Assembly: GCA_016748015.1 (NCBI GenBank) | Contig: JAAOMT010000665.1 | Coordinates: forward strand, 138,901-202,900 | Reading direction: 5' to 3' | Length of the DNA: 64,000 nt | Source: Geosiphon pyriformis | Lineage: Eukaryota > Glomeromycota > Glomeromycetes > Archaeosporales > Geosiphonaceae | Shown: in pieces, positions 27,004-53,904 of the stretch | How positions within the stretch are numbered: position 1 is the stretch's first letter | Layout of the letters: every line of letters begins with the position of its first letter | Translations under genes and position numbers: made by a program | Notes under the pieces: generated by a model | The model's input: only the letters and a program-made list of their open reading frames with translations | Told to the model about the DNA's origin: nothing | Databases searched by the model: none

Positions 27004-28289
27004 TTAAAACCATTCTTCAATGATAAATAAACACTCACCAGGCTTTCCTTGAATAATGTTCATGCCTACGAGGGATGTGATTAAAAAATTGCAAGTGAAG
27101 ACTACGTTTTTACTATCATCTTTAAACTTCTCACCAAAACAAGCTTTGTACTTTACTCCTTTGTCAACTCTCCTGTATGACAGCAAAGTTTTCAGCGGAT
27201 CTATACCATTTCTCTCCCCAGTGTCTGGGTTTACATTTGGGACTAAATTTCATTTATTTCCGTGAATGGATATCCTGCCTCTTCCTTAAATCAAGTCTTT
27301 TTGTTTTTAGCTTAGATAGACTCACTTATGCAACGGGAACAACGGCAAGCGACATAAAAGACATTCTCAGGATCTTCGCCAATGACTATTTTTTTCCAAG
27401 TATCCTCTTCGAAAGGAACCTTACATCCTTTTACGGTAATATTGGGTCTAAAGTTGCGCATACTAACTGGCTCTGATAATTTGGAATTGAGGTCTTTTAA
27501 AGATTCCTCGCTGATTAATAGGAAAGGATAGCCATCCGAAAACGCTGTCTGTTTAGAAAAAATCACATTTCAACTGTTTGGATATTTACATCAAAAAACT
27601 CACACAATTTGTTCCTTACCTGAGGCTGATATCCGACCTCTTCTTGATTTGGCGCGTGTTCTTTTACAGGTCTAACTTCGTTTGGTGACTTGAATACGAT
27701 CCTGGATGGAATACCCAAATATTTAGATATCCATCTAGATGCTTCTTCACCACAATCATAAGCGTCATAGTAACCCTCACAAACGAGGGATTTTTGAAGG
27801 TTGTAACTTTCTGGGCTATATCGCGAAATAATGATTTATTTGTTAAACAGGTCAAATGTTTTATCAGAATTAATAATAAAATTAAATTGTTCCTTATACT
27901 CTGGCCTCAACGGAAGTGAGAACTCTAGCATGCCCGGAGCACACAAAATTAGGGCTCCTCTTTCTTCATTAATTGTAGGAGCAATCAAAGCCAACTAATT
28001 TAAATTGATGGAATACAAAGTCCATGAGTTCTGAAAATTAATTTCTGGGTGGAAATTTTAACCACATTAAGGCTTATGAAACCTTCGGTATCTCTCGCTG
28101 TGTCAAAAAATTTGAATCTTCATCGACAATCATCCAGAATCGGTCATAAATAAAACCACACTCATTGGTTTTACATGAATCCACCTTAATACCTCGACAA
28201 GACTTTATTGGGTAAATATAAAGACCACTAATTTTTATATTATTGGAATAATCCATTTTACGAAAATTGGTCGAGTTTATTTCATCCAT
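27004..28289 (-). CDS. mARC-like MOSC-domain molybdenum protein
   Basis: Minus-strand exons: 28289-28083, 27994-27900, 27815-27620, 27548-27326 and 27242-27004; about 319 aa. The N-terminal beta-barrel shows SGLYIYPIKSCRGIKVDS and YDRFWMIVDEDSNFLTQRE. The MOSC domain carries FRPNITVKGC, DTWKKIVIG, the CRCSRC segment that supplies the Mo-binding Cys, and VNPDTGERNG. mARC proteins reduce N-hydroxylated compounds with cytochrome b5 and its reductase. The N-terminus lacks an obvious presequence or anchor, so location is uncertain. A pogo-like transposon lies 36 bp upstream of this start codon, leaving almost no original promoter. Confidence 0.9.
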
Positions 28290-28509
28290 TTTTATATGAA
28301 TTTGATTAATAATTATAATTATGTACAGTCAAACCTGAGATAACCCATACTGAGATAACCCATAACCTGTGATAAGCCATAACCTGTGATAAGCCATAGC
28401 ATTTACTGTCAGTATGGGTTATCTCAGGTGCTAGTTCTGGTAAAATTGCAAAGCAAACCAATATTTCCATGACTAAAAATGCTATATGATAATGTAACAT
28501 CACTTATTC

Positions 28510-29180
28510 AACAGAATGATCATTAATCATGTAAGTAATCAAGTCGGAGTTTCGAATTGTCCCAAGTTTTAAATTATCATCAATTGTGTGAGTAATCAAG
28601 TCGGAATTTTGAATTGTCCCAAGTTTTAAATTATTACTGATCTTGTGAGTAATTAAGTCATAGTTTCAAATTGTCCCAAGTTTTAAATTATCATTGATTG
28701 TATGAGTAATCAAGTCGGAGTTTCGAATTGTTCCAAGTTTTAAATTACTGACCTTGTGAATAATCAATTCGGAGTTTTAAATTGTCCCAAGTTCTAAATT
28801 ATCATCGATTGTATGAGTAATCAATTCGGAGTTTTAAATTGTCCCAAGTTCTAAATTATCATCGATTGTATGAGTAATCAAGTCAGAGTTTCGAATTGTT
28901 TCAAGTTTTAAATTATTATCGATTGTATAAGTAATCAAGTCGGAGTTTCGAATTGTCCCAAGTTCTAAATTATCATCGATTGTATAAGTAATCAAGTCGG
29001 AGTTTCGAATTGTCCCAAGTTCTAAATTATCATCAATTGTATGAGTAATCAAGTCAGAGTTTCGAATTGTCCCAAGCTCTAAATTATCATTGATTGTATG
29101 AGTAATCAAATCAGAGTTTCGAATTGTTTCAAGTTTTAAATTATTATCAATTGTGTGAGTAATCAAGTCGGATTTTTGGA
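28510..29180. repeat. 57-bp minisatellite inside the pogo-like element (about 12 units)
   Basis: Twelve units with 56-57 bp spacing, each containing the core GAGTAATCAAGTCGGAGTTT and CCCAAGTTYTAAATTATC. Units are diverged mostly by transitions. Because 57 is divisible by three, the minus strand stays open and reads as 19-residue repeats (LITHTIDDNLELGTIRNSD), probably a by-product. The same array recurs in the second element copy. Confidence 0.9.
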
Positions 29181-29238
29181 TCAGCCCTATCTGATCAGAG
29201 TCTTAATCGTACTTTTCCTTTGCCTTTTGATTCCACCA

Positions 29239-30571
29239 TGTCTAATAGCAAAAAGCATGCTATCTCTTTAGCTTGCATTCCACAAAGTCGTGAGAATGCT
29301 ACACTTTATGATAAGCTTATGGTGCTTGATTGATATCATGCAAATGATAAAAACCAATCAAAAACTGCAAGGCACTTTAAGGAAAACGGTTTTCCATACA
29401 TGAAACAGCCTCTAGTTTCGGCTTGGGTCAAAAATGAACCAAATCTTCGTCCATGAGCAAATACAATGCGTGACTTGACTAGCAAGCGTATACGCACAGT
29501 ATGTAATCCTGACTTTGATAAAGCACTTGTTATTTTTGTTCGAGGCAGAATCACGTGGAATGATACTTAGTGGAGATGTAATTCGAGCTGCTGGCATAAA
29601 GTTCTATGATCAATTGAATATTCCAGAAAATGAGCGCCAAAAACTATCCAATGGCTGGCTTGAGAGCTTTAAAGACCATGTTGGATTGCATTCACTTCAC
29701 TTTCAAGGTGAGTATCATCAGCCAATGTTGAGCATATTGAAGATGAGTGAGTGCATGTAATGACACTTCTTGCTGATTGGAAGTTATGCAATATTTTCAA
29801 CATGGATGAAACTGCACTATTTGCTACAATACCACGTTATGGCACCAAACAATCAAAAATGCGACTGACACTTGCCTTTACAACCAATGGTGATGGAACT
29901 GAGTGTTTGCCACCACTTATTATAGGTCATGCTAAACGTCCACGCTGTTTTCAAAAGAAAACAGGAGAGCAACTTGGTTTCCAGTATTATTCAAACACTC
30001 GTGCTTAGATAACTGGTGATATTTTTTGACAATGGCTTGTTGATTGGGACTATCAGCTGCATAAAAAAAACCAAAACATATTGTTGTTAGTAGACAATTT
30101 TGCTGATCACAACTATAATACGAGATTTATTACAAATATTCATGCAGAATGGTTTGCATCTAACTTGACAGCACATATTCAGCCTATGGATGCTGGAATT
30201 ATTCATTGTTTTAAGGCACATTACTGTCACCATTTTTTTACCATGCATTGGATTTTTTTGATGATGGTGCCGATGATATTTATGCAATCAACCAACTTCA
30301 AGCAATGTGTCTAATTTATAGGGCATGGAAAAATGTTTCAAATGAAATAATTGCTTATTGCTGGCACAAAGTTGGCATTCTTCCAATCAATACAAATGAC
30401 AATTTTCAGAATGAAACTGCAAACTTGGAAATAATAGCTAATTATAATCAAAAGATAGTATTAGAAAAGATTAAGGATTGCTACAAAGAGTTCAATTGCA
30501 TACAGCCAAATCGTAGATACTTATCAATTGAAGAGTTGGTAAATTGCAAATTATATTATAACAAATCGTAA
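29239..30571 (+). pseudogene. Disrupted pogo/Tigger-type DDE transposase
   Basis: Reading across frames gives an N-terminal CENP-B-like DNA-binding region (KTARHFKENGF, VSAWVKNEPN), then the catalytic domain: NMDETALFATIPRYGTKQ (first Asp), LLLVDNFADHN (second Asp) and HIQPMDAGIIHCFKAHY (third Asp region). Stops occur soon after the start (near 29331), near 30006-30008 and around 30028, with frame changes near 29545 and 29750. It cannot make an intact enzyme. Family: DDE_1 transposases that use TA targets, in agreement with the element ends. Confidence 0.85.
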
Positions 30572-32117
30572 AACAAAGCATGATAGCTCTGATAAAGAAC
30601 AAGAGGTACAGAAAGTAATGAGTATTAAGGATGTACTAACTGCTATTACAAATCTTGAACAGTTTATAGAGCTTAAAAATAGCAAGGAATTTTATGATAC
30701 AGTTAGTAAGCTTGCTTATGTTAAATGTATACTTCATAAGAGAATGCAAAATAAACAAAAACAAATAACTTTTACAAGTTTCTTTAATATTGCATAAACT
30801 ATTTAAAGATTCTTATAAGAATATGCAAATAAAATTATTTTTTAATAATATTATATCTATTTTTATTATATGTATATTATATATACTTAAACCTAAGAAA
30901 ATCTATAATCTGTAATAATTTATAGCAATTTGTATTTACCAAAGGCATAAGTTATCTCAGATTTGACTGTACTAATTATTTTTTAATATTTAATATCTTG
31001 AATATTCTTTTGTATTATAAAATTTGTTTTTTAAAATATTTTAAAATAACTTTTAATAATTTGCTTTTAAATAAATGTAATAATATTTTGAATTAAAAAA
31101 CTTTTTATTGTTAAAAAAAATTGGATTCTAAAAAATTAATATTATATTAGTTTATTTTAGCTACAAATTTTATGTATGTTAATAATCTAATTAATACTAA
31201 ATTTATGTTAATTTATAAATATTATTATTATTATTATTATTTAACAAGTATAATTCAGTTATTATCTAGTAAACAGAATCAAGTAAGATAATTCCAACTA
31301 AATATAACTCATGTACTTACTATATGTGACTAGCTATTTAAGCCAATTTAAATAACACTATGCATTTATAAAAACTATTGGAACATTATTAACACCAAAG
31401 AAGAATACATAAAGTAAATGCTTACCAAAACTTACTGTTAAAAACTTAATGATACCAAACATATTTAACAACTTTGTGTTTAATTTAGTAGACAACATAA
31501 AAATCTTATTGTTAACTTTTACCAAACCAGCTTTTTTTAATTCTACCCTATACTTTACTTTGACACATTATATCTTACAGTAATAAGAATTAACTAAATA
31601 GTAAGAAAATTTTACCAGAATAAAAACAGTCTTTTTTTTATTGTCAAATATACATAAAGCTTTTTTGGTCTAATCTTTGAAAACAAAATCTTTGCAAAGA
31701 ATCATATATAACTCAATATTAAACAGACAGAGCAACAAAGACTACACAACTAAAGAAAACATAGGCACTTTTCTACCAGCCAATTGTAACCCTAATCCAA
31801 TATAATTCAAACCCAATTTTCTCCATCAATTTACATTTTTTAAGTATGTAAACAAATGGTTTAAAATCTTTACTTGTCTACAAAATAAGCACAAAACACT
31901 TAGATATAATTTGTCATACAATTTTTTATGCACAGTAACAGAAAGTCTCCCATAAACAGCTTTTATCATATAAGTTCTTAGAATGTTAATAAACATATCA
32001 GTAATTTCAACAAGCATGTGTGAATTAAAATGTCAAATTTCAGCTATACAAACTCAATTAATATTACAAACAAAAAATCTATCAATAATTTTAGAACTAG
32101 AACCCACTTTTTAATAA

Positions 32118-36000: not shown

Positions 36001-37215
36001 ATTAATAGATCTTATTATTATTTTACTCAGCAACTTTTACTTAATATCCAAATTTTTATAAGTTTTTGCTCTCAAAAACTTATCTGTTATTAATACATAT
36101 TTAGCAAAAAAACATTTTTTAAATTGTATTCATTTTGTACTATCTACATTTTTGATTTTAAACTTCTAGTAATCTTTGTTAGCTTGCTTGTATAGGCTAT
36201 TTAAATAAACATCTAATAAATTATTTAAACCAACTATTACTGAAACTGCTTTGTGATTAGTATTAAAAAAGTCAAATACTGATTTGATTTCATAATCAAT
36301 AACTGCAAAAAACAAGTCTTTATTTACAAAAATGTAATCAATAATCTTTTTAACACCTTTTAAATTCTTTTAAGTAAAGGCTTTAATTAACAAATGCCAA
36401 TTAAATAAGTTAACCAAATCCAAATTCAAACAGAACTTAAAACTTGCACTTTTTTGAATCTATTTTTATTGAAGTCATTACTTATGATCATAAAATTGTT
36501 AGAATTGATTGCTTTGGCAATAAAAAAGTTGATTTTTAAAGTCTAATTGAATCTAGCTTTAGCAAAAACACCAGTATACAAACCCAAAACCATATCTAAA
36601 AGATTGTTTTTAAAAAAAAGCTGTATTGAGATAACACAATATTATAGATAATTATTTGAGGTGTTAGAACAAATAACAAATTTATAACTTGGTACTCAAT
36701 AGCTGAAAATGTTAGTAATTTCTGAAGGTTTTGAAGTCTAAAGATTTTAATTAAGTTTTTTATATAATAAACAGAAATTAAATTAATGATTTTTTTTATG
36801 AATCTCTTTTTTTAACATGATGGCCAGTTTATTCTAGCAGTTATGTCCTTCTAATAAGCTATTTTTAAATTTTTTACCCTTTTTCTAGGTTTTTTACCAG
36901 GCTATCTTTGATGTCAATTACTTAGTACTTAATTCTTTTAATCAATTAGTAAACAACAAAGAAATAAAACAAAAGAAAATAATAAAATAATAAAAAATAA
37001 TAATAAAAAATAAAAATAAAAATAAGAAATTAGTATTCTATTAATAGCTATAATCAAAAATTATTGGTCTAGTATAGTTAAATATTGAATTTTATCAATA
37101 TTTTATGTTGATAATAAGGAAAATAATTAATATTTTTAATTAAATAATAATAATATAGATAAAATAATAATAGATAATTTTATTAATATTAATATAATTT
37201 CATTTCAAGTTATAG

Positions 37216-37940
37216 TGTTATGGTTGAGACCTATACTTCTTATTAATTATCACATGTATTAGTTACTGATATCATATAATTAGCCACACTATTTTTAGAA
37301 AGTAATTATTGACCTGACTGTTGACTTGACCATTGACCTGATTATTGACCTGATCAATAATCTGATTATTGACCTGATTATTGACCTAATCATTGACCTA
37401 ATTATTGACTACTTTTGACAGCTATATAAGCAATGAATCTCTTAGCTGTAAAAAAGTATGTAATAACAAGCATCTGAATAATCAAGAATAAATAAAATAA
37501 CAACTTTCATCTCAATCCTTCTCTTATCACTAATTTTCCTTTCCCTACCTTCAAGTATCTGAACATCTTAAAGATAAAAGATTACTTGTTGGCCTTTTCC
37601 TAACATATATAATTGTAGCATTTGAAGATTATTTGAATAAACGTGACTGAAAAGCACAAATTGATACCTAATATTGAATTCTAAGAGTGCTAACATGAGA
37701 CATAGAATTATACCAGTAGTGATCAATTGTTGACAGTACGGACTATCCCTCTATCTTCAGATTCTCCAGTTACTTTTGAAAAGAATAGTGACTGAGATAT
37801 TTTATGAGAGTGATCTTACACATTGAATCCATACTCATTCAATTTGCTCTTTAAAGTTGAATTCTCTTTTGATTATTTCCATCACCCTACAATCCTGTTC
37901 TCCCTTGCTATCCATTAGCTTGTTACTCCAACCCATAACA
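37216..37940 (+). repeat. 5' LTR of the Gypsy element
   Basis: 725 bp. Contains a run of degenerate 12-mers of the type ATTATTGACCTG (about 37305-37415) immediately before a TATATAAG box at about 37423, a probable enhancer and promoter arrangement. Same length as the 3' LTR, without indels. Confidence 0.95.
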
Positions 37941-37992
37941 TAAAAGTGGTGCTCTCTGTGAGGTTGTCAAAATTCACTTATTTTTTCATTGT

Positions 37993-39480
37993 ATGGATGA
38001 TTATTCATACTTGCCACAGCAATCAGAAGGACACTTTGCAGCATACAACAACAACAACCTAGAGTTTATTGAACTCAATCCTCTGCCCTCCTGTTTAATC
38101 TGTTTCCCTGTTGAAGAACAATTCAGTAGACAATTCCAAGACTTTTGGAACTGGTTTCTGAATGAACATTCAGCTGAAACCTACACAGCTTATACCATCT
38201 ATTACTTTGATCAAGCTTATTTTGAAGACAATTTTGAAGAAAGAAATACCAGTATTAATCAGCTCTTATACTCCACAACCTTTGAACAACAGCCCCCTGA
38301 TTTCGAATATCTGAATCACCAAATCTATATTTGGATTACTGCTCACCAACTAGCTGAAAACTCCTTTAAAACAGAAGAAAAAAATTACCAAACTGCCTCT
38401 ATTTTTGATATTTTTTCAAGTGAATCAGAGCACTTCACACAAACAGTAACTCCTGAACCAATGGCCCAAGATCCAATGCAAGCAAACATCCTGGCTGCCC
38501 TCCAAGGTATACAAACTGCCTTGGGGTGAAGAAACAACACTCTATTACCATTATTTAGAGGTGATGCACAAGATCCAATTGAATGGTTGGATGACTTTGA
38601 GAGAGCTGCTACAGCTAACCAATACAATGATGAGTACAAGTTTCAAATTGTTAGTGGCTACCTTCAAGGCTCCCCTGCCACCTGGTTCTTACAGAAAACT
38701 GATGCCAATGTCCATCAAAGAATCATTAGATGGATGCCAGTAAATGCTGGAGAAAACAACACCTCTTTCACAACCCAGTTTGAAAACAAGTTCAGAATCC
38801 CAATCTTGATATCCAAGTGGTGCATAGAATTGGAAAGAAGAACTCAAGGTCCAGAAAAAGTAGTAACTGAATATGCTAAAGCAATCAGAAAGTTAATCAA
38901 ATGAGTGGACTTTAGAAGAAACTGAACAAAAGAACAAAAGATTCATTCCTTTACAAAAAGATTGAGAACCAACTTATCCTATACTCTTTGGCCTCTCTTG
39001 GCTCCAAAAGATAATCCTACAATGGACATGGCCATTGAACTTGCCCAAAGAATTGAAGACAACTAAAGAATGCACTTGGAATTCACACTTCCAGTTTTCG
39101 CTCCTGCTCCTGTTATGGCTTCTGCTCCTCAAATGGCTGCTACTTTTTTTGCTGCCCAAACTTAAAATCCAAATGAACAGTTGATAGATAGACTTACAGC
39201 AAATCTTGCTTGGCTATTAGAACCATTAGCCCAAGCAGTCAAAAATAACCAGCAACCCCAAAGACCCAGATTTGAGCCATGCTTTAATCAGTCTTAGCAA
39301 CCACCTTATCAAAGACAACAAAATCATGGCCCACCTGTGTGCTATCACTGTGAATTAACTGGACATTTTTCAAGAGATTGCAACAATCTTCCCTTACCCC
39401 CTCCAGCTCCCAGAAACAATGATAACCAAAACAACAGAACTATTAACAACAATGCTCCCAATTAAAGACCTAATCATGCC
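37993..39480 (+). pseudogene. Gypsy gag (disrupted)
   Basis: Starts MDDYSYLPQQSEG at 37993. After a TGA at 38527 the same product continues with FRGDAQDPIEWLDDFERAA and WFLQKTDANVH, a capsid-like region of retrotransposon gag, and ends with a CCHC zinc knuckle CYHCELTGHFSRDC (39340-39381). Stops at 38527, 38902, about 38921, 39064, 39163, 39296 and 39463 interrupt it. Confidence 0.8.
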
Positions 39481-39872
39481 AATATCAATTTCTTTGGAGA
39501 GGATCCCCTAGTTGAAGCCACTGTTTATCAGCCTTTAAACTGGTAGGTGCACCTCCAAAGGGTGAGAGTGCAAGCCAACCAGAAGAAAACTCCTTTTATG
39601 TCTTTAACTTAACTTATGATGACTATGACATAGATGAACTAGCAATTAACACCACAGAATCAACAAGGAAAAAGAAGAAAGCCAAGGTTGATTTTGTTTT
39701 AGATCCAAACAAATCATCCACATCAACTGTTGATAATAATGAGCCACCAAAAGCTAAAGTTTTTAACAATTCTCCAAAGCTAAAACCCTCAGAAATAGTA
39801 CAAAAATCTGGACCTTATTCTATTATTAAAAATTTCATAGAAACTCTAATACATATTACCTTTGGCCAGCTA

Positions 39873-42800
39873 ATGATCCATCCACAGTTTAGAAAAGATT
39901 TTCACAAATCTTTAATCCCCAAGAAGAAAATACCAAAAACCAACAAACACTCTTGTCAAGCTGGACTTGCTGACAACAGCAATGTTACCCCTTTAATTTG
40001 CAAAGCCCAAGTGGCTGGTTATTTCATCGATTTGATCCTAGACAGTAGATTATTTGTGAGTGTCATTGCCAAACATTTCTTAGAAGCAATTGGCAGAAAA
40101 ATTGACAAATCTTCCACCAGACCTATGACCAATGTACATAGCAATAAAAAGAAAGGTCTTGATATTGCCAAAGCTATTCCTGTCCACATCAATGACATCA
40201 GCATTGAAACTGACATAAAGATTTCTGAAACAAAGGAATACACCATCATTGTTGGCAATAAGTGGCTCAAGAAAGCAAAAGCCTTACTCGACTATAAACT
40301 GTATGAATTAACCATCAGATGTAATGAGAAGCCCATAGTGGTTAAATGCCGCCATTGGACAACTCTCCCAGCAAACAAACAGGAACAAGAAAAAGAACAA
40401 TCAGACAAATCAGATGATGAAGAGAGTGATGAAGAAAAAGAACAAAAGGAACAAAAAGAAACCACTGAACTTACATACACTATCTTTATCAGCAATGACA
40501 AGCCACTAGACAATGTCAAAGCTGACAAAGAAGGAATCATTGTAAATGATAAGCTAATCTGCTGGCCCTACTATAATATCCTTAGAAGAATCTTTGACCA
40601 AAAACCTGGCAAGAAAGCCAAGTACTGTTATTAGTGGCATGGTTTTTGTGCCCAGTGCTAATGCAACCAACCCTTGTATTCTCCAAGTAATGAATGCAAA
40701 TCATGCTTGATCTATTACAAAGATTGGGAACAAATCAGTTTAATACCAAGAGAAGAATTGAAAAAAGTCCAAAAGTCCTTTGAAAATGAACCACCTGAGA
40801 TCCAATTACTAGTTGTAGAACAAAGAGAACCCTCTTCAGAAGAAAGAAAAATAGACATTGAAAATCTGCTGGCTAGAAACAGCCTAGTTATCTTAAAAGA
40901 AAGTGACATCTCTAGACGAACTCATGTGATACAACACACCATCACCATCAAAGAAACTTGCCCCATCTATCTAAAGCCATATCAATCCAATTGCCACAAT
41001 AATGAGTTCATCAAGAAAGAAATAAAATAAATGAAAGATCTTGGATTCATACAAGAAACCAAGAGTGAATAGGCTTTCCCAGTTGTAGTAGTATCCAAGA
41101 AAGGTGGAATCCTGCACTTCTGTGTCAATTATTATCAATTAAATGCCATCACTGAAAGAGGCATATACCCACTTCCCAAAATTGATGCAATGCTAGATCA
41201 ATTCAAGAGTGCTGCTTTCTTCTCAGCTATTGATCTAACTGCTGGATTTTGACAAGTAGAGATGGATCCAGAAAGTTGGAAAAAAACCACTTTCATAACC
41301 AAGTATGGCAGCTATGAATTCACAGTCATGCTTTTTGGTCTCACCAATGCTTCTCCTATCTTTCAATGCTTAATGGACAAAGTATTTGAATCAGTGAAAA
41401 AAAATTTTGTTCTGGTTTATTTGGATGACATAATGGTGTACTCAAAAACTTGGAATGAACATCTTAAACATTTGCAAAAGGTTTTTGACTTTCTTAGAAA
41501 TGCTGTCCTTAAGATAAACCCAATCAAATCTTTCTTTGGATGGCAATCAACCCAATTTTTTGGCCATCTTATTACAAAAAATAGAATCTTTCCTGATCCA
41601 GCCAAGGTTGAAAAAATCCAAAACATTAAACAACCAATGAATGTTCATGAACTGTGCTCTTTTCTTGGTTTGGCTTTTTATTATCGGAAATTTGTCAAGG
41701 ATTTTTCCAAAATTGCCTTTCCACTCAATCAGCTACTTAAAAAAAATATCAATTACCACTGGAGTACACATCAACAGAAAGCATTTGAAACCCTCAAAGA
41801 AAAATTGGTTACAGAACCTATTCTCAAGCAACCTAATCTGGATCAATCTTTTATTCTTTATACTAATGCATCTGGTTATGGACTTGGTGCTGTCCTGTCA
41901 CAAAAAGATGAAAATGACAGGGAACATGCAATAGCATATGCCAGTAGAACCCTTACACCAGCAGAACAGAACTATTCAGTTACTGAACAGGAATGCTTAG
42001 TAGTAGTCTGGGCTACCAGTTACTGGAATAAGTATCTCCTAGGGGTAAAGTTTTTGGTAGTAACAAATTACCAAGCTTTGGTTTAGTTATACAACAAAAA
42101 GAAGCTGGAACATAAAAGAATAACTCACTGGATACTCCACTTGGACGAATTCGACTATGACATTCAACATCGCAAAGAAACATATCATCAAAACACTGAC
42201 ATTCTCTCTAGACTTACCATCCAGTGACAGTACAACTACCTCAAACCAAACCAACCTAATTATTAGTAATTCTCTCACAACCAAACACGATAATAAACTT
42301 GGACAACTACTATGCCTTAATGAAATTTTTGGGTAAAAAACAATACCCACCAGAATACAATCAACAGCAAGGAGAACATTTGTGCAAACAATCAAATTTC
42401 TATTTGATCTGTCAGAACCAACTATACAAAAAAAACAGAAAAGATCCTAACCACCCCCAAAGAGTCATAAGATTTGAAGAAAGAGAAATTGTGATCTATA
42501 ACATGTACACTGATCCATTAGCTGGACATTTTGGAAAAACTAAAACAATTCAGAAAACTCTAGCTTGCTATTATTAGTCTACCTTGGGAAAAGACATTGC
42601 TGAGTACATTAAAACCTGTGATACCTGCCAAAGAAAAGAAAAACCCAATAGAAAAGATGATATCCATTCAATCTCTGTTGGCCAACTATTTGACAGGATT
42701 GGTATAGATGTTGTTGGATCTTTAACAATAACTCCTGATGGCAATAGATACATTATCACAGCTACCAACTATCTTACAAAGTAAGTAGAAGCAAGAGCCA

Positions 42801-43606
42801 CTTCAGACCAAACAGCAGTCTCAATAGCCAATTTCATTTATGAAAATATCATCTGCTATTATGGCTGCCCCAGAAAACTTTTATCTAATAAAGGAAAAGC
42901 TTTTCTCAGTACACTAGTTGAAGAACTTTGTAGAAAAATGGGAATACATCACAAATTTTTCTCTTCTTATCACCCCCAAACAAATGGCCTAGTAGAACAT
43001 TTTAATAGAATACTATGTAAAACTCTAACCAAAACAAGTGAAAAAACAAACTTATGGGACAAAGTACTGCCTTCAGCTTTGTTTGCTTATAAAACTGTAA
43101 ATCATAACATAACAAGTTATAAACCTTTTTATCTGCTCTATAGATACATGGCAACACTACCAATAGAAACTAACATTGAGACAATATCCTTTGAAGAGAT
43201 CACAATAGCAAATTACAAAAACATTTTGCAAAGAAGACTTGGTACCATTCTTAACTCATTGATAAAAGCACGAATAGTTGCTTTTGAAAAAATAAAACAG
43301 TTTCAAAAAAAGCTTAAAAAGAAGAAAACCTATAAAACACTTTCTTTAAGTGTTGGTAACTTGGTATTAGAATATTGTTCAGACAGAGACAATGTTTATG
43401 GTGATAAATTCTTTAGCCAGTGGAAAAGACTCTTTATAATCAACAAAGTTTTGAACAATGGTTCTTATATTCTTCAAGATCAATTTAGAACAATCTTTAA
43501 TGATCGATCTGTTCATGGTATGCAACTCAAGAAATATTACAAACGACTTGATTGGTTGCTTGTTGTGGTAATACTGACTCAAATGATCAACAAAAATCAA
43601 GTATAA
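39873..43606 (+). pseudogene. Gypsy pol: protease, RT, RNase H, integrase (disrupted)
   Basis: Protease region at about 40010-40350, where the expected DSG active site reads DSR. RT at about 41080-41500 with PLPKIDAMLDQ, FGLTNASPIFQ and the intact YLDD box. RNase H at 41840-42060 (LYTNASGYGLGAVLSQ, where the first catalytic Asp is Asn). Integrase at 42460-43500 with CDTCQRKEKP and SSYHPQTNGLVEHFNR. Stops at 40632, 41028, 41068, 41250, 42084, 42574 and 42783 split it. It is not functional. Confidence 0.9.
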
Positions 43607-43614
43607 ATAAACAC

Positions 43615-44304
43615 ACTATTTCCAAAACAGAAATATCTTCAATTGACATAAACAATTATTTTTTGGATCAAAACATTCAAAATGTCTTTTATATTCTCTA
43701 TGAGTATTGGATTAAAAACTATCTAAATGCTACTTTGACTATTGGAAAACAGACCACTATAACTGACAACAATGGAATACATACTGTTATTAGACCAAAG
43801 AAAACAACTACCAGAAGAGAAAAAATTGGTGGCAAAATGAATAAATATCTGCTAGAAAATATAACAGCAGTGATACTCATACCTTCCATCACACTTGGAA
43901 AAACAATTAAAAAAATCTTACTCATAGACAAAAACTTGTCATATGAAAGACAACTAGAGCTCTATAGTTGCCTTAGTAAAATTATAGATAACATAAAGCT
44001 CATAAAGAAAACAACTTCAGAGTTACAGGCAGAAATTTTGGGCATTATACGATTAGATGTTCTAAGAGTTTTAACTATTGCTAGAAAAGCCAAAACTCTA
44101 ATACAAAGATTTGGTCTCTTGAATACAAAACTCATTTCACCTCAAGTATTATACATTCTATCTACAAAAGACTTCAATAAATTAGTTAGCTTTAAGTTAA
44201 ATAAAACTTTTCAAATAGATTACACTATAAATAGCTTGATTTCACTAGAGCTCAATCTCTTTGAAGAAGATGATGTTATGATTGAGACCTATACTTCTTA
44301 TTAA
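43615..44304 (+). CDS. Uninterrupted ORF downstream of the Gypsy integrase, unknown function
   Basis: A frame open from about 43552, overlapping the end of integrase in a different register, to TAA at 44302-44304; the last ~10 residues are encoded by the 3' LTR. The first good ATG is at 43837 (MNKYLLENITAVIL). The product is Lys/Ile-rich, lacks an evident membrane segment or zinc motif, and has a helical middle (SYERQLELYSCLSKIIDNIKL). It is the only long frame in the element with no stop. It could be an accessory ORF, a chromodomain-less integrase tail read in another frame, or chance survival. Confidence 0.4.
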   Translation, partial: TISKTEISSIDINNYFLDQNIQNVFYILYEYWIKNYLNATLTIGKQTTITDNNGIHTVIRPKKTTTRREKIGGKMNKYLLENITAVILIPSITLGKTIKKILLIDKNLSYERQLELYSCLSKIIDNIKLIKKTTSELQAEILGIIRLDVLRVLTIARKAKTLIQRFGLLNTKLISPQVLYILSTKDFNKLVSFKLNKTFQIDYTINSLISLELNLFEEDDVMIETYTSY

Positions 44305-44998
44305 TTATTACATGTATTAGTCATTGATGTCATATGATTAGTCACACTATTTTTAGAAAGTGATCATTAACCTGACTGTTGATTTAACTATTGACCTGAT
44401 CATTGACCTGATCAATGACCTGATCATTAACCTAATCATTGACTTAATTATTGACCTGATTATTGACCACTTTTGACAGCTATATAAGTGATAAATCTCT
44501 TAGCTGTAGAAAAGCATATAATAACAAGCATCTGAATAATCAAGAATAAATAAAATAACAACTTTCATCTCAATCCTTCTCTTATCACTAATTTCCTTTT
44601 TTCTACCTTCAAGTATCTGAACATCTTAAAGATAAAAGATTACTTGTTGGCCTTTTCCTAACATATATAATTGTAGCATTTGAAGATTATTTGAATAAAC
44701 ATAACTGAAAAGCACAAGTTGATATCTGATATTAAATTCTAAAAGTGCCAATGTGAGGCATAGAATTATACCAGTGGTGATCAATTGTTGACAGTATGGA
44801 CTATTCCTCTACCTTCAGATTCTCCAGTTACCTTTGAAAAAAATAGTGACTGAGATATTTTATGAGACTAATCTCGCACATTGAATCCATACTTATTCAA
44901 TTCACTCTTTAAAATTGAATTCTTTTTTGATTATTTCTATTACCCTACAATTCTGTTCTCCCTTGCTATCCGTTAGCTTGTTACTCTAACCTGTAATA
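44274..44998 (+). repeat. 3' LTR of the Gypsy element
   Basis: 725 bp, starting TGTTATG and ending ATAATA (ancestral ATAACA). It aligns with the 5' LTR without gaps. By eye there are about 68 substitutions, all but one transitions. Confidence 0.95.
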
Positions 44999-47900
44999 AT
45001 AGAAAACTATCTTTTGAAAAAAAAAGTATTGTTGTTCTAAACTTTATTGAATTTTTCTGAAATTATTTTTTTTGCTTTTAACATTCTTGTTATATATATA
45101 TAATTTATGTTATATGAGATTTTTTGGAATTCTGCAATTCCCTAAAAAAAATTCTAAAATTTTGCAATTTTGCAATTCCTCAAAAAAAATTCTGGAATTC
45201 TGGAATCTTGTAATTCTCTTTTTTACTATATTTATTTTTAATTAACTATTTTATCTATTATTATAATTCCTAATTTTTATAAGTAATAATGTTATCTTTT
45301 TTGTTAATGAATTTTTCTAATTTGGCAATTAGTGTATATGCCATTAGTTTAAGTTATTATTATTAAGATTGTTGTTGTTGTGTAGTAATTGGTGCAATTG
45401 GTAGATTGATTATAATAACTGAAAGTAAGTTTTGCTAAAAAATAGAAGTAAGGTTTAAATTATTTAAGTTTAGTGAAGTTTAAACAATTGAAATTTATAT
45501 TTCTGAGTTATCTAAAATTGGGTTTTGATTCTTATTTTTCTAATTGTCATTTTTTTTTTCTGAATTGGTGTTTTTCTAATAACTAGTAGATTCGAAATTT
45601 GGTTGAGATGATAGTGATTAAAGTTTTGATAGTGTTGTTGGTCATAATTTAAATTCTTTAAAAAAATTGTCATAGATTTCTAATAGTTTGGTTTTTTCTT
45701 AATTATTTTAAAATAATACTTTGAATAATAGTGTTTTTATTATTAATAATAATGTGAATTCAAATAATATGTAGATAGTACTTTCTGGTATATGATAATA
45801 TAATAAGTAAATAAGTAAAATAATTCTTGATTTCTTTTAAATAGGCAGTTGTATTTTTCTTGATGTTCTTGCTAAAGTTTGTAATTTCTTTTTGTTTACA
45901 AAGATAATAAGAAATTTTTACTGAGTGTACTTTTCAATTTCTGTAATTAGTGGAACAAACAAATAATTTTATAGAAGCATAGTGCTTTGGAGTAATTTAC
46001 TATAGAAATTATTGAAGGTGGCTTTTGAATCTTCTTAGTTTCCTAAGTAAGATTTAATTTTTTTGTTAATATAGAAATTGAAAGTTGATTCTGTTGGCCA
46101 ATAATTATTTGTTAGTTTAAAGTAAATTTGGTAATGTTGAAATAAAAATTTCGTGAATTTTAAATGATTTTTTTCTATAATTTTTTGTCTACCATTTTTT
46201 TGAATAGTTAATGTTAGTGTTGGTTTTCTGTTAGATTATATATCTTACAAAAAGCACCAAATATTATAGGTAATTATTTGAAATGTTAAAACAAATAACA
46301 AATTTATAACTTGGTGCTTAATAACTAAAAATGTTAATAAACAGAAATTCAATTAATACTTTCTTCTGTGAATTTTTTTTTCCAGTATAATGGCTGGTTT
46401 ATTTTGACAGTTATGTCTTTTTGGTAAGCTATCCTTAAATTTTTACCCTTGTTTCCAAGTTTTTTACCAGACTATTTTTAACATCAAATATTTAGTGCTT
46501 AATTTTTTTTTTAATTAGTAAACAACAAAGAAACAAAACAAAATAAATAAATAAAAATAAATAAAAAATTAGTATTCTATCAATAGCTGTAATCAAAAAC
46601 TATTGGTTCAGTATAGTTAAGTATTAAATTTTATCAAAATAAAGTGTTAATAATATGGAATAAATTAATATTTTTTTTAATCAAGTAATGATAACATAAA
46701 TTTAAGTAATAATAAATGTTTTATTAATATAAGTATAATTCTCATTTTAAGTTATAAAAAACTATCTTTTAAAGAAAGAAATATTGTTATTTTGAACTAA
46801 TTAGAACTCTAATAAATACTTTTTCTGTTTTTAACATTTTTGTTATATATACATAATTTATATTATATGAGATTTTTTGAAATTTTTGAAATTCTTTGAA
46901 AAAAATTCTAAAATTCTGAAATCTTGCAATTTCTTGAAAAAAATCCTGGAATTTTTTTTTTACTATGTATATTTCTAATTGGCTATTTTATCTACTTATT
47001 ATAATCTTTAATTTTTATAAGTAACAATAATTAAGAACTTTTTCTATCTTAAAAACATGTTAAACCAAAGAATTGTTTATGATAATAACTATTCCAGCAT
47101 TGAAAAAACTTTTTTTCAAACCAGATATAAAAATTCATATACTATCAAACTTATTTACAATCTATGGCTTAATGCTAGATCTTAATTTTGTTTCTATAAC
47201 TATAAAGATTATATTACCTAATTTTGTATGTCAACAAACAATATTTTTTTGCTTAGTAAAAACATTAATGTCTTGAATATTACATGTAACAAATTTTTAT
47301 ACCAAATTAGTTATTAAAATAAAAAAAACAACAGAAAACTCAAGCCAGAGCACAATTGATCTATTTTTTAAAACTGAACTAATAAAGACCTTAAAAACAA
47401 TTATTTTTAATTTCAAGCCACCAATCTTGATAGTTAAAACCTTTAAGCTACTCAAATTCAGATCTGAAAACTTATTTTTTACAATCAATAAAAATAAAAA
47501 AAGTGATGTTAATAAGCCATTTAAAACCATATTCAAATCGAAATTTGAATTTATTAATACAAATATAGCAGAAAAAAGAAATTAAAAACAGATACCAAAG
47601 ATACCAGATTCACATTGCTTAATTTTTGCAGAATACTTAAAACTTGATTAGCCAAAAGCTCTAAAAAACATTCCAAAAAAGCCAAATAAACACAAATGAA
47701 CAAATTATCTTAAACAACTAAAAAACTTTTTTTAATATATAATATACTAAAAAAAAGAGATCTAAAACCAAAACCAAAGTAAGTATTATCAAAAAAAACA
47801 GCAAATAAGACTACCTGTGTTCAATATTTGCCACCAAAGACAGCAAAATATAAAATAAAAACATATTTCTTAATATATAATTTGGCCAGCTAAAAATGAT

Positions 47901-49511: not shown

Positions 49512-51859
49512 ATGTTCAAAGTGAAAAATTTTTTAATGGCTACTTTAATAGAAATTTTTATTATTTTAGAATCAACTCATTTTTTATTTAAAGAAATATT
49601 AAAAGAAGAAAAAAGTGGTCCAACTTCTTTTTCTATATTAAACTTAAGAAAACCAAAGTTAGAGCCACAATTTATATTAGAAATTATTTTTTTGGCTTTA
49701 GAAATAGCAGCAACTAAGCCCAAAAGGGACTTATTATCAAGATTATTTATAATATAATTGTCTTTATCACTATTAGACTCACTATTTATATTTAAATACA
49801 CAGTATTAAGACTAAATCTAATCAAAAATATATCTTTCTTGTTATTAGAGTGTTTTATATTACTGAGAATTATTTTTTTCTTTTAAAGAAAAAGTCATTA
49901 ACAGAATCATAAAAAGTCTCTTTAAGTATCTTTTTCCTAAATATGTTATTACTTGAAATAGCTTTTAAATTCACAATAAAAAAGTTATTAAATTGAAAAA
50001 TATTAAATAAGAAAAACAAAAAAAAACAAAAACTTTTTTTTTAAAAAATATGCTTTTTGGAAAATTTAAAACATAGAAGAAAAAGAAGTATTATAATTAT
50101 TTTTTATTAATTATAGTGTATTGTTTTCAAAAAACTTATAATTAAAAAAAAATATTTTTTTAAAAACAATTAAAGATTGCTTTAAATCTGTATTATCTAT
50201 AAAAAAACACTTTTAAAATATTTTGTTCAGCTATTTTTTCTATTAAAAAAACTTTTTTGGTTGTTTTTTAATTATATTAACAGAAATAGTTAAATTTTAT
50301 ATATTATATATTTTTATTTTTACAATAATTTCAAATTAATAAATTAATATTACAGTTAAATTTAAGATAACTCATATTTTTAATGAATACAAATTGTTAT
50401 GAATTATTACAAGTTATAAATTTTTTTAGGTTTAAGTATATATAGTATATATATAATAAAAATAAATTTATTTGCATATTCTTATAAAATTTTTTAAATA
50501 GTTTATGCAATATTAAAGAAACTTGTAAAAGTTATTTGTTTTTGTTTATTTTGTATTTTTTTATAAAGTATATATTTAACATAAGCAAGCTTACTAACTG
50601 CATTATAAAATTTCTTGCTATTTTTAAGTTCTATAAACTGTTCAAAATTTGTAATAGCAATTAGTATATCTTTAATACTTATTACTTTTTGTATCTCTTG
50701 TTTTTTATCAGAGCTATCATGTTTTGTTTTATGATTTGTTATAATATAATTTGCAATCTCATCATCATTTAGATGTTCTAAAGTAATTATATTATTTTTT
50801 TAGATAGATTTACCAATTTTTTAATTAATAAGTATATATGATTTGGCTGTATACAATTAAACTTTTTGTAGCAATTTTTAATTTTTTTTAATATTATCTT
50901 TTAATTATAATTAGCTATTATTTTCAAGTTTGCATTTTTATTCTAAAAGTAGTTATTTGTATTAATTAGAATATTATTAACATTATTATCAAAAAATCTA
51001 ATATATAATAAAAAAATAGCAACAATAATGTGCTTTAAAATAATAAATAATTTTAGTATCTATAGACTAAATATGTACTGTTAAGTTAGATACAAACTAT
51101 TCTATATGAATATTTGTAATAGATCTTGTATTATAGTTATAATTAACAAAATTGTTTATTAATAACAATATGTTTTGGTTTTTTTTATGCAATTAATAGT
51201 CCCAATCAACAAGCTATTGTCAAAAAATATCACTAGTTATTTAAACATAAGTGTTTAAATAATACTAAAAACCAAGTTGTTTTTCTGTTTTCTTTTGAAA
51301 ACAGTGTGAATATTTAATATAATTAATAATAAGTAATGGCAAACACTTAGTTCTATCAGCATTAGTTGTAAAAACAAGTATTAATTGCACTTTTAATTGT
51401 TTAATGCCATGATATGATATTGTAACAAGACTTCAATTTGGTGATATAGCATAAAATAATGCAGTTTTATCTATATTAAAAATATTGTATAACTTTTAAT
51501 CAGCAAAAAATATCATTATATGCACTTATTTATCTTCAATATACTTAATATTGGCTGATAATATTCATCATAAAAGTTAAGTAAATGCAATTTAACATGG
51601 TTTTTAAAGCTTTTAAATTAGTTATTAGATAGTTTTTGGTGCTTATTTTTTAAAATATTCAATTAAACATAACACTTTATGACAAAAACTTGTATTATAT
51701 TTTCAGTAAATATTATTTCATGCAATTTTGTCTCTTAAACAAAAATAACAAATGCTTTATCAAAATTAAAATTACATATTATGTATTGTTATTCATAAAA
51801 AAAAAATACAAAAAAAAAGAAAAAAAAAAAGATCATAAGATAAACTAATAAAAGAATAG

Positions 51860-52598
51860 TACTCAATAAGTAAACACATTTTCAGAAAATTATGATACAT
51901 TTCTAGAAATGTGCATATTTTTAGAAAGTAGCATAAAAAAAGAGTAAAAATATGTAGAATTTTATATAACATAAATTATGTATATATAGTAAGAGTATTA
52001 AAAGCAGAAAAAACAAAACAGTTAAAGAAAAAGTTAGAAATAAATAATTATCTAATATCTTTCTCTTTAAAAGATAGTTTCTTATAACTTAAAGTAAAAT
52101 TATATTAATATTAATAAAAATATTTCTTATTATTTAATTAAGAAATATTAATCAATTATATATTATTAATTATCTATGTTAATAGAATCCAATACTTAAT
52201 TATCCTAAACCAATAGTTCTTAATTATAACTATTGACAGAATACTAATTTCTTATTTATTTCCTATTTTTTTTATTTTTTTTTATTTTGTTTTTTTGTTG
52301 TTTACTAATTAATTATAGAATTAAATACTAAATAATTGACATCAAAAATAGTCTGATAAAAGATCTGTAAAACAAGAGTAAAAAAACTTAAGAATAGCTT
52401 TCTAAAAAAACATAACTGCCAAAATAAACTGACTACTATGCTGAAAATAAAAATTAAGAAAAATTATTAATTAAATTTCTGTCTATTATACAAAAAACTT
52501 AACTAAAATCTTTAAAAATTACTATTATAATTAGCTATTAAGTACCAAGTTATAAATTTGTTATTTGCTTCAACTATTCCAAATAATTATTTATAATA
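51860..52598 (-). repeat. Solo LTR, family L (inverted, copy 5)
   Basis: Ends at 52598 with the complement of TATTATAAATAATTATTTGG and contains the shared block for ATAACTTGGTACTTAATAG. The other end is too decayed to place exactly. It is nested in pogo-like copy 2. Confidence 0.6.
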
Positions 52599-52909
52599 GC
52601 ATATATGTTTATTAGTTAAGTCATATATTATATTTGCTTATGGATAAAAATTTGGTTTATTTTTGATCCAAGCTGAAACTAGAAACTGTTTTATATATGA
52701 AAAACTGTTTTTCTTAAAGTGTTTTATAGTTTTTGATTGGTTTTTATTATTTTTATAATATTAATTAAGCATTATAAACTTATTATAAAATGTAGTATTC
52801 TTATAACTTAATAGAATGCAAACTAAAAAAATAACATGCTTTTTGTTATTAAATATAGTGAATTAAAAAGCAAAAAAAAAGTACAATTAAAACTTTAATT
52901 AGATAAAAC

Positions 52910-53640
52910 TGATTCAAAAATTCGACTTGATTACTCACATAATTGATAATAATTTAAAATTTAAAATAATTCAAAACTTTGATTTAATTATTTATATAAT
53001 CAATAATAATTTAAAGCTTAGAACAATTTAAAATTCTGACTTAATTATTCATACAATTAATGATAATTTAGAACTTAAGACAATTTGAAACTCTAATTTA
53101 ATTACTTATATAATTAATAATAATTTAAAACTTAGAACAATTTGAAATTTTAACTTAATTACTTATATAATTAATAATAATATAGAACTTAAAACAATTT
53201 GAAACTCTAATTTGATTACTTACAAGTTTAGTAATAATTTAAAACTTAGAACAATTCAAAACTCTAACTTAATTACTTATATAATTAATAATAATTTAGA
53301 ACTTAAGACAATTCAAAACTCCAACTTATTTATTTACAAGGTTAATAATAATTTACAATTTAAAACTCTGACTTGATTACTCATATAATTGATGATAATT
53401 TAAAACTTGGAACAATTCAAAACTCCAATTTGATTACTCATACAAGTAATAATAATTTAAAACTTAAAACAATTTGAAACTATAACTTAATTATTTACAA
53501 GATTAATAATAATTTAAAACTTAGAATAATTTAAATTTTTAATTTAATTACTTACACAATTGATGATAATTTAAAACTTAGAATAATTTGAAATTCTGAT
53601 TTAATTACTTACATAATTAATAATTATTTTATTAAATAAG
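52910..53640. repeat. 57-bp minisatellite in pogo-like copy 2 (decayed)
   Basis: About 13 diverged units, reverse complement of the array at 28510-29180, with recurring ACTTAATTACTTATATAATT and AATAATTTAAAACTTAGAACA. Its presence at the same relative place in both copies shows that the array belongs to the element family rather than being a local expansion. Confidence 0.8.
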
Positions 53641-53904
53641 TGATATTATATTATCATATAGCATTTTTAGTTATGAAAATATTAATTTGCTTTACTGCAA
53701 TTTTATCAGAATTAGCAGAATTTAAATTAAACTAGCATTTAAGATAATTTATACTGACAGTAAAAATTTATGGGTTTTTAGATATTACAAATATAGATTA
53801 TAAACATAATAATTTTTTTATTATCAAATTGGTAGATTCAAAATATTATGGCTTATTATAAATTATAGATTATCTCAATATAAATTGTTTTAGGTTTGAC
53901 TATA

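Follow-up and report, generated by a model that had tools for sequence, protein, structure and literature searches.

Why do the two long terminal repeats (LTRs) of a single retrotransposon differ from each other almost only by transitions? The question is raised by a Ty3/Gypsy-type element lying in a 64,000-nucleotide stretch (the whole of the DNA analysed here, hereafter the window) of contig JAAOMT010000665.1 of Geosiphon pyriformis, a member of the Glomeromycotina (Archaeosporales) and a relative of mycorrhizal fungi. The assembly comprises 124.7 Mb in 406 contigs; the genome is described as 129 Mb in size with 64% repeats (PMC9453076). An earlier note, made from the sequence of the window, had reported the bias and likened it to repeat-induced point mutation (RIP) or to enzymatic deamination of methylated repeats. 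The analysis presented here reveals in G. pyriformis an intense, RIP-like C-to-T decay of transposons, which the indices usually applied to RIP miss. Of the two processes suggested earlier, enzymatic or methylation-linked mutation is well supported, but RIP in the strict sense is not.

The window element and its LTR pair

The element is a Ty3/Gypsy LTR retrotransposon, with a pair of LTRs, a 4-bp target-site duplication, and a protease followed by a reverse transcriptase-RNase H. Its parts are as follows (the scored columns are those of the family alignment described below):

37212-37215, no strand: target-site duplication, left, sequence ATAG
37216-37940, + strand: 5' LTR of the Ty3/Gypsy-type element, 725 bp, TG...CA; C-to-T at 22/204 scored C/G columns
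37810, + strand: sole transversion between the two LTRs, G (C at 44868)
39516-40634, + strand: open stretch with a retroviral-type aspartyl protease domain (RVP_2, Pfam PF08284, E 2.1e-05)
41253-42086, + strand: reverse transcriptase/RNase H stretch (Pfam RVT_1, E 3.2e-20; RT_RNaseH_2, E 1.2e-36)
42785-43606, + strand: weak integrase match, 3' of the reverse transcriptase as in the Ty3/Gypsy order (rve, E 0.001; rve_3, E 0.0004; both below the Pfam cut-off)
44274-44998, + strand: 3' LTR, 725 bp, with TAATA at its end where the 5' LTR has TAACA; C-to-T at 35/204 scored columns
44999-45002, no strand: target-site duplication, right, sequence ATAG

Since the 4-bp duplication ATAG is present on both sides of the element, the two LTRs constitute an insertion pair. 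Their alignment with MAFFT (37216-37940 versus 44274-44998) comprises 725 columns with 67 transitions, one transversion and no gaps, which agrees with the approximately 68 differences and the lack of indels reported before; the single G/C transversion was also seen correctly, but at 37810 (opposite 44868) instead of near 37806. Given the transition/transversion ratio (ts/tv) of 2.2 found for the source lineage (see below), the chance of finding at most one transversion among 68 differences is about 3e-10 (own arithmetic). Read from the 5' to the 3' LTR, the transitions are C>T (23), T>C (14), G>A (15) and A>G (15), and by context they fall on C before A (40), CT (11), CC (11) and CG (5). The earlier impression that many changes sit in CpA/TpG therefore holds for this pair (40/67), but CpA as the preferred target does not survive the counting of available sites, after which the order is CG, then CC, CA and CT.

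Several other features of the element were recorded. A 182-bp stretch of the LTR pair (37461-37642 versus 44519-44700) carries only four, clustered differences; it is possibly a tract of conversion between both LTRs (p 0.003 for the largest gap between differences, post hoc). A protected promoter block at LTR positions 246-427 was considered and rejected: the family-wide C-to-T rate there equals that of the rest of the LTR, and therefore the low-difference stretch is peculiar to the window element. The U3 region contains a 12-bp tandem array (37300-37421, LTR positions 85-206), by eye TTGACCTGATCA-like, whose copy number differs by multiples of 12 between both LTRs in 11 of the first 12 pairs studied. 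Along the interior (37941-44273), subfamily identity switches among copies, and the Gypsy copies appear to be recombinant, with two or more source lineages as parents. The 120 listed of the 183 homologues of the 372-aa protease stretch are all annotated G. pyriformis proteins.

Family-wide spectrum, context and timing of the changes

A genome search with the window 5' LTR, in which 40 of 2384 candidates were scored, gave 43 matches; among these candidates the best non-self match was 92% identical and no unmutated Gypsy LTR was found. The 33 elements examined provided 25 LTR pairs, eight elements being without a usable second LTR. The spread of these copies is truncated, since they are those closest in sequence to the window LTR. 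Outside the 12-bp array, the 25 pairs differ by 1262 transitions and 38 transversions in 15001 aligned sites, i.e. a ts/tv of 33 and not the value near 2 that the earlier note had set against its own proposal. Small gaps are few (13, of which 4 are located at the cut ends of extracted LTRs and 9 are internal). The number of transitions per pair (mean 50.5) is Poisson-like, with a variance/mean ratio of 1.14, and is uncorrelated with the number of transversions (rho -0.12). Because the copies were picked by their similarity to one LTR, the pairs alone do not tell a burst of changes from a clock.

The direction of change was obtained from a polarised alignment of 56 LTRs and 603 columns, of which 204 have a C/G majority and 399 an A/T majority (two diverged LTRs, L022_3 and L025m_5, were present in the first alignment and excluded from later ones; the 5' LTRs of elements C354 and C260 were left out of the analysis). 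A C-to-T (or G-to-A) change is present in some copy at 197 of the 204 C/G-majority columns, while 331 of the 399 A/T-majority columns are invariant and 68 vary. Counted by cells, there are 1689 C>T/G>A changes versus 377 in reverse and 135 transversions. The C-to-T rate per cytosine and copy is.389 in CG,.184 in CC,.143 in CA and.107 in CT; thus CG is the most mutated context and no preference for CpA is seen, although 1471 of the 1689 changes are non-CG. With respect to the base 5' of the mutated cytosine, the rates are.183 (CC),.169 (TC),.123 (GC) and.109 (AC). None of the 56 LTRs was flagged by the RIP indices proposed earlier as a check (TpA/ApT > 1.1 together with a substrate index < 0.9).

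C columns are changed in 15.2% of cells and G columns in 14.2%, and therefore both strands are affected alike. No clustering of the changes is seen: 667 neighbours lie within 10 bp, where 671 +/- 13 are expected, and same-strand neighbours are in slight excess (929 versus 899 +/- 14). Both LTRs of one element have on average 8.3 mutated sites in common and unrelated LTRs 6.6; almost all changes therefore postdate insertion and occurred in each LTR separately.

The C-to-T load was found to be higher in the 3' than in the 5' LTR (mean 32.8 versus 27.8 of 204 columns in 25 elements; Wilcoxon p 0.0002), also in the nine pairs that were not chosen via the 5' LTR (31.0 versus 26.1, p 0.016). A promoter-active 5' LTR may be partly protected.

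Source lineage and gene duplicates

The interior of the Gypsy element splits into subfamilies, and differences fixed between them arose during transposition, which makes them a control for the source lineage. In three interior pieces (the fourth, with the integrase, shows no subfamily split and was omitted), the fixed differences comprise 57 transitions and 26 transversions (ts/tv 2.2), and 71 of these 83 lie at third codon positions. The changes private to one copy, on the other hand, comprise 175 transitions versus 15 transversions; 160 of the 175 transitions are C-to-T and 121 lie at codon positions 1 and 2, and therefore the struck copies are no longer under selection.

Duplicated genes do not share this spectrum: transitions versus transversions are 50:22 in a pair of small DNA methyltransferase (DNMT) genes, 206:178 in AGO genes and 46:67 in the DIM-2-like candidates (ts/tv 0.7-2.3). 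A tandem AGO duplication (L073, 1-1696 and 2679-4374) is identical at 1696/1696 bp and may extend past the stretch analysed; its identity may reflect a very recent origin or the assembly. The stand-ins for unique intergenic DNA, i.e. the source lineage, the gene duplicates and the CpG content of the gene-bearing half of the window, are all normal. Because the source lineage and the tested gene duplicates show normal spectra, the transition excess belongs, within the limits of so few genes, to resident transposon copies and neither to the whole genome nor to duplication in itself.

Compartments of the window and other transposon families

The window (GC content 0.29) is divided into two compartments, as judged by the observed/expected ratio of CpG (CpG o/e), and contains two copies of a pogo/Tigger-type DNA transposon (W1 and W2):

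1-30000, no strand: gene-bearing half, CpG o/e 0.52-1.02 in 2-kb bins; genes NIPA, Sua5 and XPB
28074-28328: MOSC-domain gene fragment (MOSC_N, E 3.9e-16), adjoining W1
28429-30987, + strand: pogo/Tigger-type copy W1, less mutated (DDE_1, PF03184, E 3.9e-10; CpG o/e 0.62)
30001-64000, no strand: repeat half, CpG o/e 0-0.38 in 2-kb bins
50335-53717, - strand: pogo/Tigger-type copy W2, heavily C-to-T mutated (GC 0.17, CpG o/e 0.04)

In the gene half, 14 of the 15 bins have a CpG o/e of at least 0.72. The edge between the compartments, at 30-31 kb, runs across the right end of W1, and there the number of CG per 500 bp drops from 8 through 2 and 2 to 0 (between 29.5 and 31.5 kb). The link of mutation to compartment is drawn from this one window.

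Relative to W1, copy W2 shows 366 C>T changes, 16 in reverse and 26 transversions, again with CG as the most affected context (.68 versus.40-.51 in the others). In a wider comparison, nine pogo/Tigger copies differ from W1 by only 0.64-1.42% in transversions, while their C>T counts range from 24 to 466 and the cytosines lost from 4 to 60%; W1 itself is not untouched, with 16 to 81 positions changed in the reverse direction. The heterogeneity of C>T among the nine copies is strong (p 1.6e-25), and still C>T correlates with transversions (Spearman 0.73, p 0.025). Eight of the copies were retrieved from 40 listed (the five best-scoring, one being skipped, and three from lower in the list); the split into light and heavy groups thus partly reflects the choice of copies, and the transversion distances include divergence of the source lineage.

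A third, 2.4-kb family, which encodes an open reading frame with an RRM domain and, by eye, a zinc knuckle, shows a weaker bias in three copies (145 C>T, 59 T>C and 11 transversions), with CG highest (.225 versus.037-.045). In a survey of repeat alignments (93 listed, among them the pair of DNMT genes and numerous overlapping rows from a single tandem repeat), the mean transitions per bin above 1% transversions stay at 12.6-17.4% (single rows 4.6-23.7%) while transversions climb beyond 12%. A plateau in the loss of cytosines was considered on this basis and rejected, as divergence of the source confounds it. With rising transversions, the median GC of the other repeats is 0.42, 0.24, 0.23, 0.17, 0.19, 0.19 and, in the most diverged bin, 0.31; the lowest medians (0.17-0.19) are reached at 3-12% transversions, with 0.31 beyond.

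Methyltransferase and deaminase genes

The earlier note had proposed a search for RID, DNMT and cytidine deaminase genes. DNMT genes are indeed present in the G. pyriformis genome: (i) a DNMT1 catalytic piece, preceded on the same contig, at about 3.5 kb, by a replication-foci domain, (ii) two DIM-2-like candidates, of which L002 has a BAH domain over the Pfam cut-off and L006 a BAH match below it, (iii) a gene with a PF00145 match (L007) which, judging its motifs by eye, we take to be DNMT2-like, and (iv) a small DNMT. For the joined catalytic pieces of L006, the nearest PDB entries are 9baq/9bap, presumably Neurospora DIM-2, with a small margin over DNMT1; no PDB match was obtained for the BAH and C-terminal pieces of the two candidates, only the joined catalytic piece of L006 being matched.

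The small DNMT occurs in two copies (L001/L003 and L005) about 32 kb apart on one contig. One of them (P0121) carries ENV, and the second lacks the stretch bearing the PPCQ and ENV motifs and is probably broken. Among the best 120 of 6862 relatives of the small DNMT, the annotated ones belong to Ambispora, Diversispora, Entrophospora, Dentiscutata and Acaulospora, and those from outside the Glomeromycotina are unnamed or prokaryotic, so this gene appears to be of a Glomeromycotina type. RID has EQT in place of ENV. By comparison of domains and homologues, none of the DNMT genes found was assigned to RID (P0121 has ENV).

Five matches to the deaminase family PF00383 were listed, and the three examined are nearest to the TadA, ComEB (presumably a dCMP deaminase) and RibD models, all below the cut-offs of those models. 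This classification is weak, and no search was aimed at APOBEC-specific families.

Origin of the C-to-T changes

The explanation that we favour, at a little better than even confidence, is that copies which are silenced and carry cytosine methylation in every context decay through mutation of 5-methylcytosine (5mC) to T. After insertion, many transposon copies would enter silenced, cytosine-methylated chromatin, in which cytosines of both strands would turn into thymine much faster than other mutations arise, all cytosine contexts being targeted and CG most. The likely writers would be among the DNMT1-type and DIM-2-like methyltransferases of the genome, and the likely chemistry would be deamination of 5mC to T, or a reaction in which the methyltransferase itself acts as deaminase, repair being inefficient. 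Direction, context, strand symmetry, origin after insertion, inequality between copies and absence from the source lineage and the tested gene duplicates are observed, while we infer the methylation, the enzymes, the repair gap and the stage of the life cycle. Host genes and source copies that still transpose would escape, and therefore the mutator would amount to a compartment-bound decay of transposons, comparable in effect to RIP. Two features of 5mC-linked decay were found: DNA methyltransferase genes are present, and CG is the most mutated context in the LTRs, the pogo pair and the 2.4-kb family. In the related Rhizophagus irregularis, 32.5-49.5% of cytosines are reported as methylated by liquid chromatography-mass spectrometry (PMC8298701), so that methylation in all contexts is plausible in Glomeromycotina, and high CG methylation is described at most transposable element loci (PMC8647823).

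Several observations weigh against this explanation. Eukaryotic transposons are commonly depleted of CpG, and therefore the case of Geosiphon may represent the usual 5mC decay at an exceptional speed. The control duplicates of genes are few in number and selection acts on part of them, T>C changes are not rare in the 2.4-kb family (59 versus 145 C>T), and the near-Poisson transitions of the LTR pairs, uncorrelated with transversions, would also be given by a one-time dose. The nanopore map of R. irregularis, as presented in PMC8647823, calls only CG, versus the 1471/1689 non-CG changes found here. According to a 2026 review (PMC13297926), DIM-2 methylates all CpN with a preference for CpT, whereas CT is the least mutated context in our data; this lowered our confidence slightly, from modestly above even to its present level. 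The same review places Glomeromycota among early-diverging fungi in which N6-methyladenine nearly replaces 5mC, contrary to the measurements in PMC8298701.

True RIP, i.e. recognition of homologous duplicated DNA in the sexual cycle followed by a burst of mutation by a RID-type enzyme, would also cause C-to-T changes on both strands of repeats and leave no unmutated Gypsy LTR, as found among the 40 scored candidates. Arbuscular mycorrhizal fungi are reported to keep RID (PMC8298701), and a discrete event would give C>T counts that, like those of the pogo copies, lie up to 19-fold apart (24 versus 466). Because copies at similar transversion distance are so unequally mutated, as from an event, RIP retains some standing, but we consider it unlikely. 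There is no CpA preference, the indices flag no LTR, the changes are unclustered with just a slight same-strand excess, and lightly and heavily mutated copies coexist in one pogo family. Moreover, 1.7 kb of duplicated AGO gene are 100% identical and the DNMT pair has a normal spectrum (few cases, however), and no gene could be assigned to RID, which PMC13297926 lists as ascomycete only. Editing of the element or its cDNA, where single strands are exposed, by a cytidine deaminase of the AID/APOBEC kind would make methylation unnecessary and could account for the preference for a 5' pyrimidine. Such a process is improbable, as the changes are strand-symmetric and unclustered, a DNA transposon family is affected too, and the three of five deaminase matches examined are nearest to the TadA, ComEB and RibD models, though below their cut-offs (no search was aimed at APOBEC-specific families).

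An assembly artefact through nanopore miscalls at methylated cytosines in repeats beyond the reach of short-read polishing is conceivable in a genome with 64% repeats and long scaffolds (PMC9453076). Such errors should recur at one motif in every copy, and yet the copies changed at any one cytosine are a minority of varying size; together with the few indels (9 internal in 15001 sites), the loss of cytosines ranging from 4% to 60% between pogo copies and the drop of median repeat GC from 0.42 to 0.17-0.19 as transversions rise (though 0.31 in the most diverged bin), this makes an artefact very improbable. Ordinary decay under a strong genome-wide transition bias would suit the AT-rich window, but is even less probable in view of the ts/tv values of the transposing lineage and the gene duplicates and of the CpG o/e of 0.72 or more in 14 of the 15 bins of the gene half. 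Finally, recombination or gene conversion with diverged family members could be imagined from the mosaic interior of the element and from the 182-bp stretch with four differences in the window pair. We give it hardly any credence: imported variation should bring the transversions seen between subfamilies, and almost every C column has C-to-T as its deviation, with far fewer deviations at A/T columns.

Comparison with known systems

By analogy, the closest working counterpart of the methylation-linked decay proposed here is the dim2-dependent mitotic mutator of Zymoseptoria tritici, although it differs in context. Both involve C-to-T changes of repeats; in Z. tritici, as described in PMC8016269, the mutation is confined to methylated repeat regions, is more than 95% C-to-T, is linked to Dim2 and needs no sexual cycle. 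However, more than 98% of its C-to-T changes fall at CpA and CG is not highly mutated (PMC8016269), whereas in Geosiphon all contexts are hit and CG most. Ascomycete RIP (Neurospora rid; PMC12543289) resembles our case in the C-to-T changes on both repeat strands and differs from it in that Geosiphon shows no CpA preference, spares the tested gene duplicates, is negative by the indices and has no gene assigned to RID. A kingdom-wide k-mer screen reports strong recent signatures of repeat-directed mutation only in four ascomycete classes (PMC12543289).

Outside Ascomycota, a CG-centred decay is represented by the TpCpG-biased C-to-T changes of transposons in Microbotryum (PMC4352252). Unlike these, the changes in Geosiphon show no steady preference for TCG (.333 versus.393-.438 for the other NCG in 56 LTRs, and.427 versus.28-.40 in 25 LTRs; few columns), and most of them are non-CG. 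In mammals and plants, CpG decays by spontaneous deamination of 5mC. This process has in common with ours that CG is hit most, in a strand-symmetric manner and in transposon-rich DNA; in Geosiphon, however, the decay extends to non-CG cytosines, whose rate is roughly 80-fold or more that of transversions per site (own arithmetic).

Implications

RIP has been reported as absent in the arbuscular mycorrhizal fungus Gigaspora margarita (PMC8647823, PMC7082362), and a search of literature titles (most subscription journals being outside its scope) gave no report of a C-to-T transposon signature in Glomeromycotina. Since transitions exceed transversions 33-fold, LTR divergence does not seem to be a simple clock in Geosiphon, and standard Kimura distances would be expected to overstate the ages of its transposons. 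A bolder proposal, which we regard as tentative and rather doubtful, is that Glomeromycotina possess a separate kind of mutator, which strikes the cytosines of silenced transposons in every context. It would be the vegetative equivalent of RIP, with methyltransferases of a DIM-2-like or a lineage-specific single-domain type as its drivers. RIP screens would miss such a mutator because it leaves no CpA signature. If true, it would be a working defence in fungi in which sex is rarely or never seen, and the main force turning their repeat compartments AT-rich. The decay seen in Geosiphon offers a way of testing if, in fungi described as asexual, it is methylation itself that mutates the DNA.

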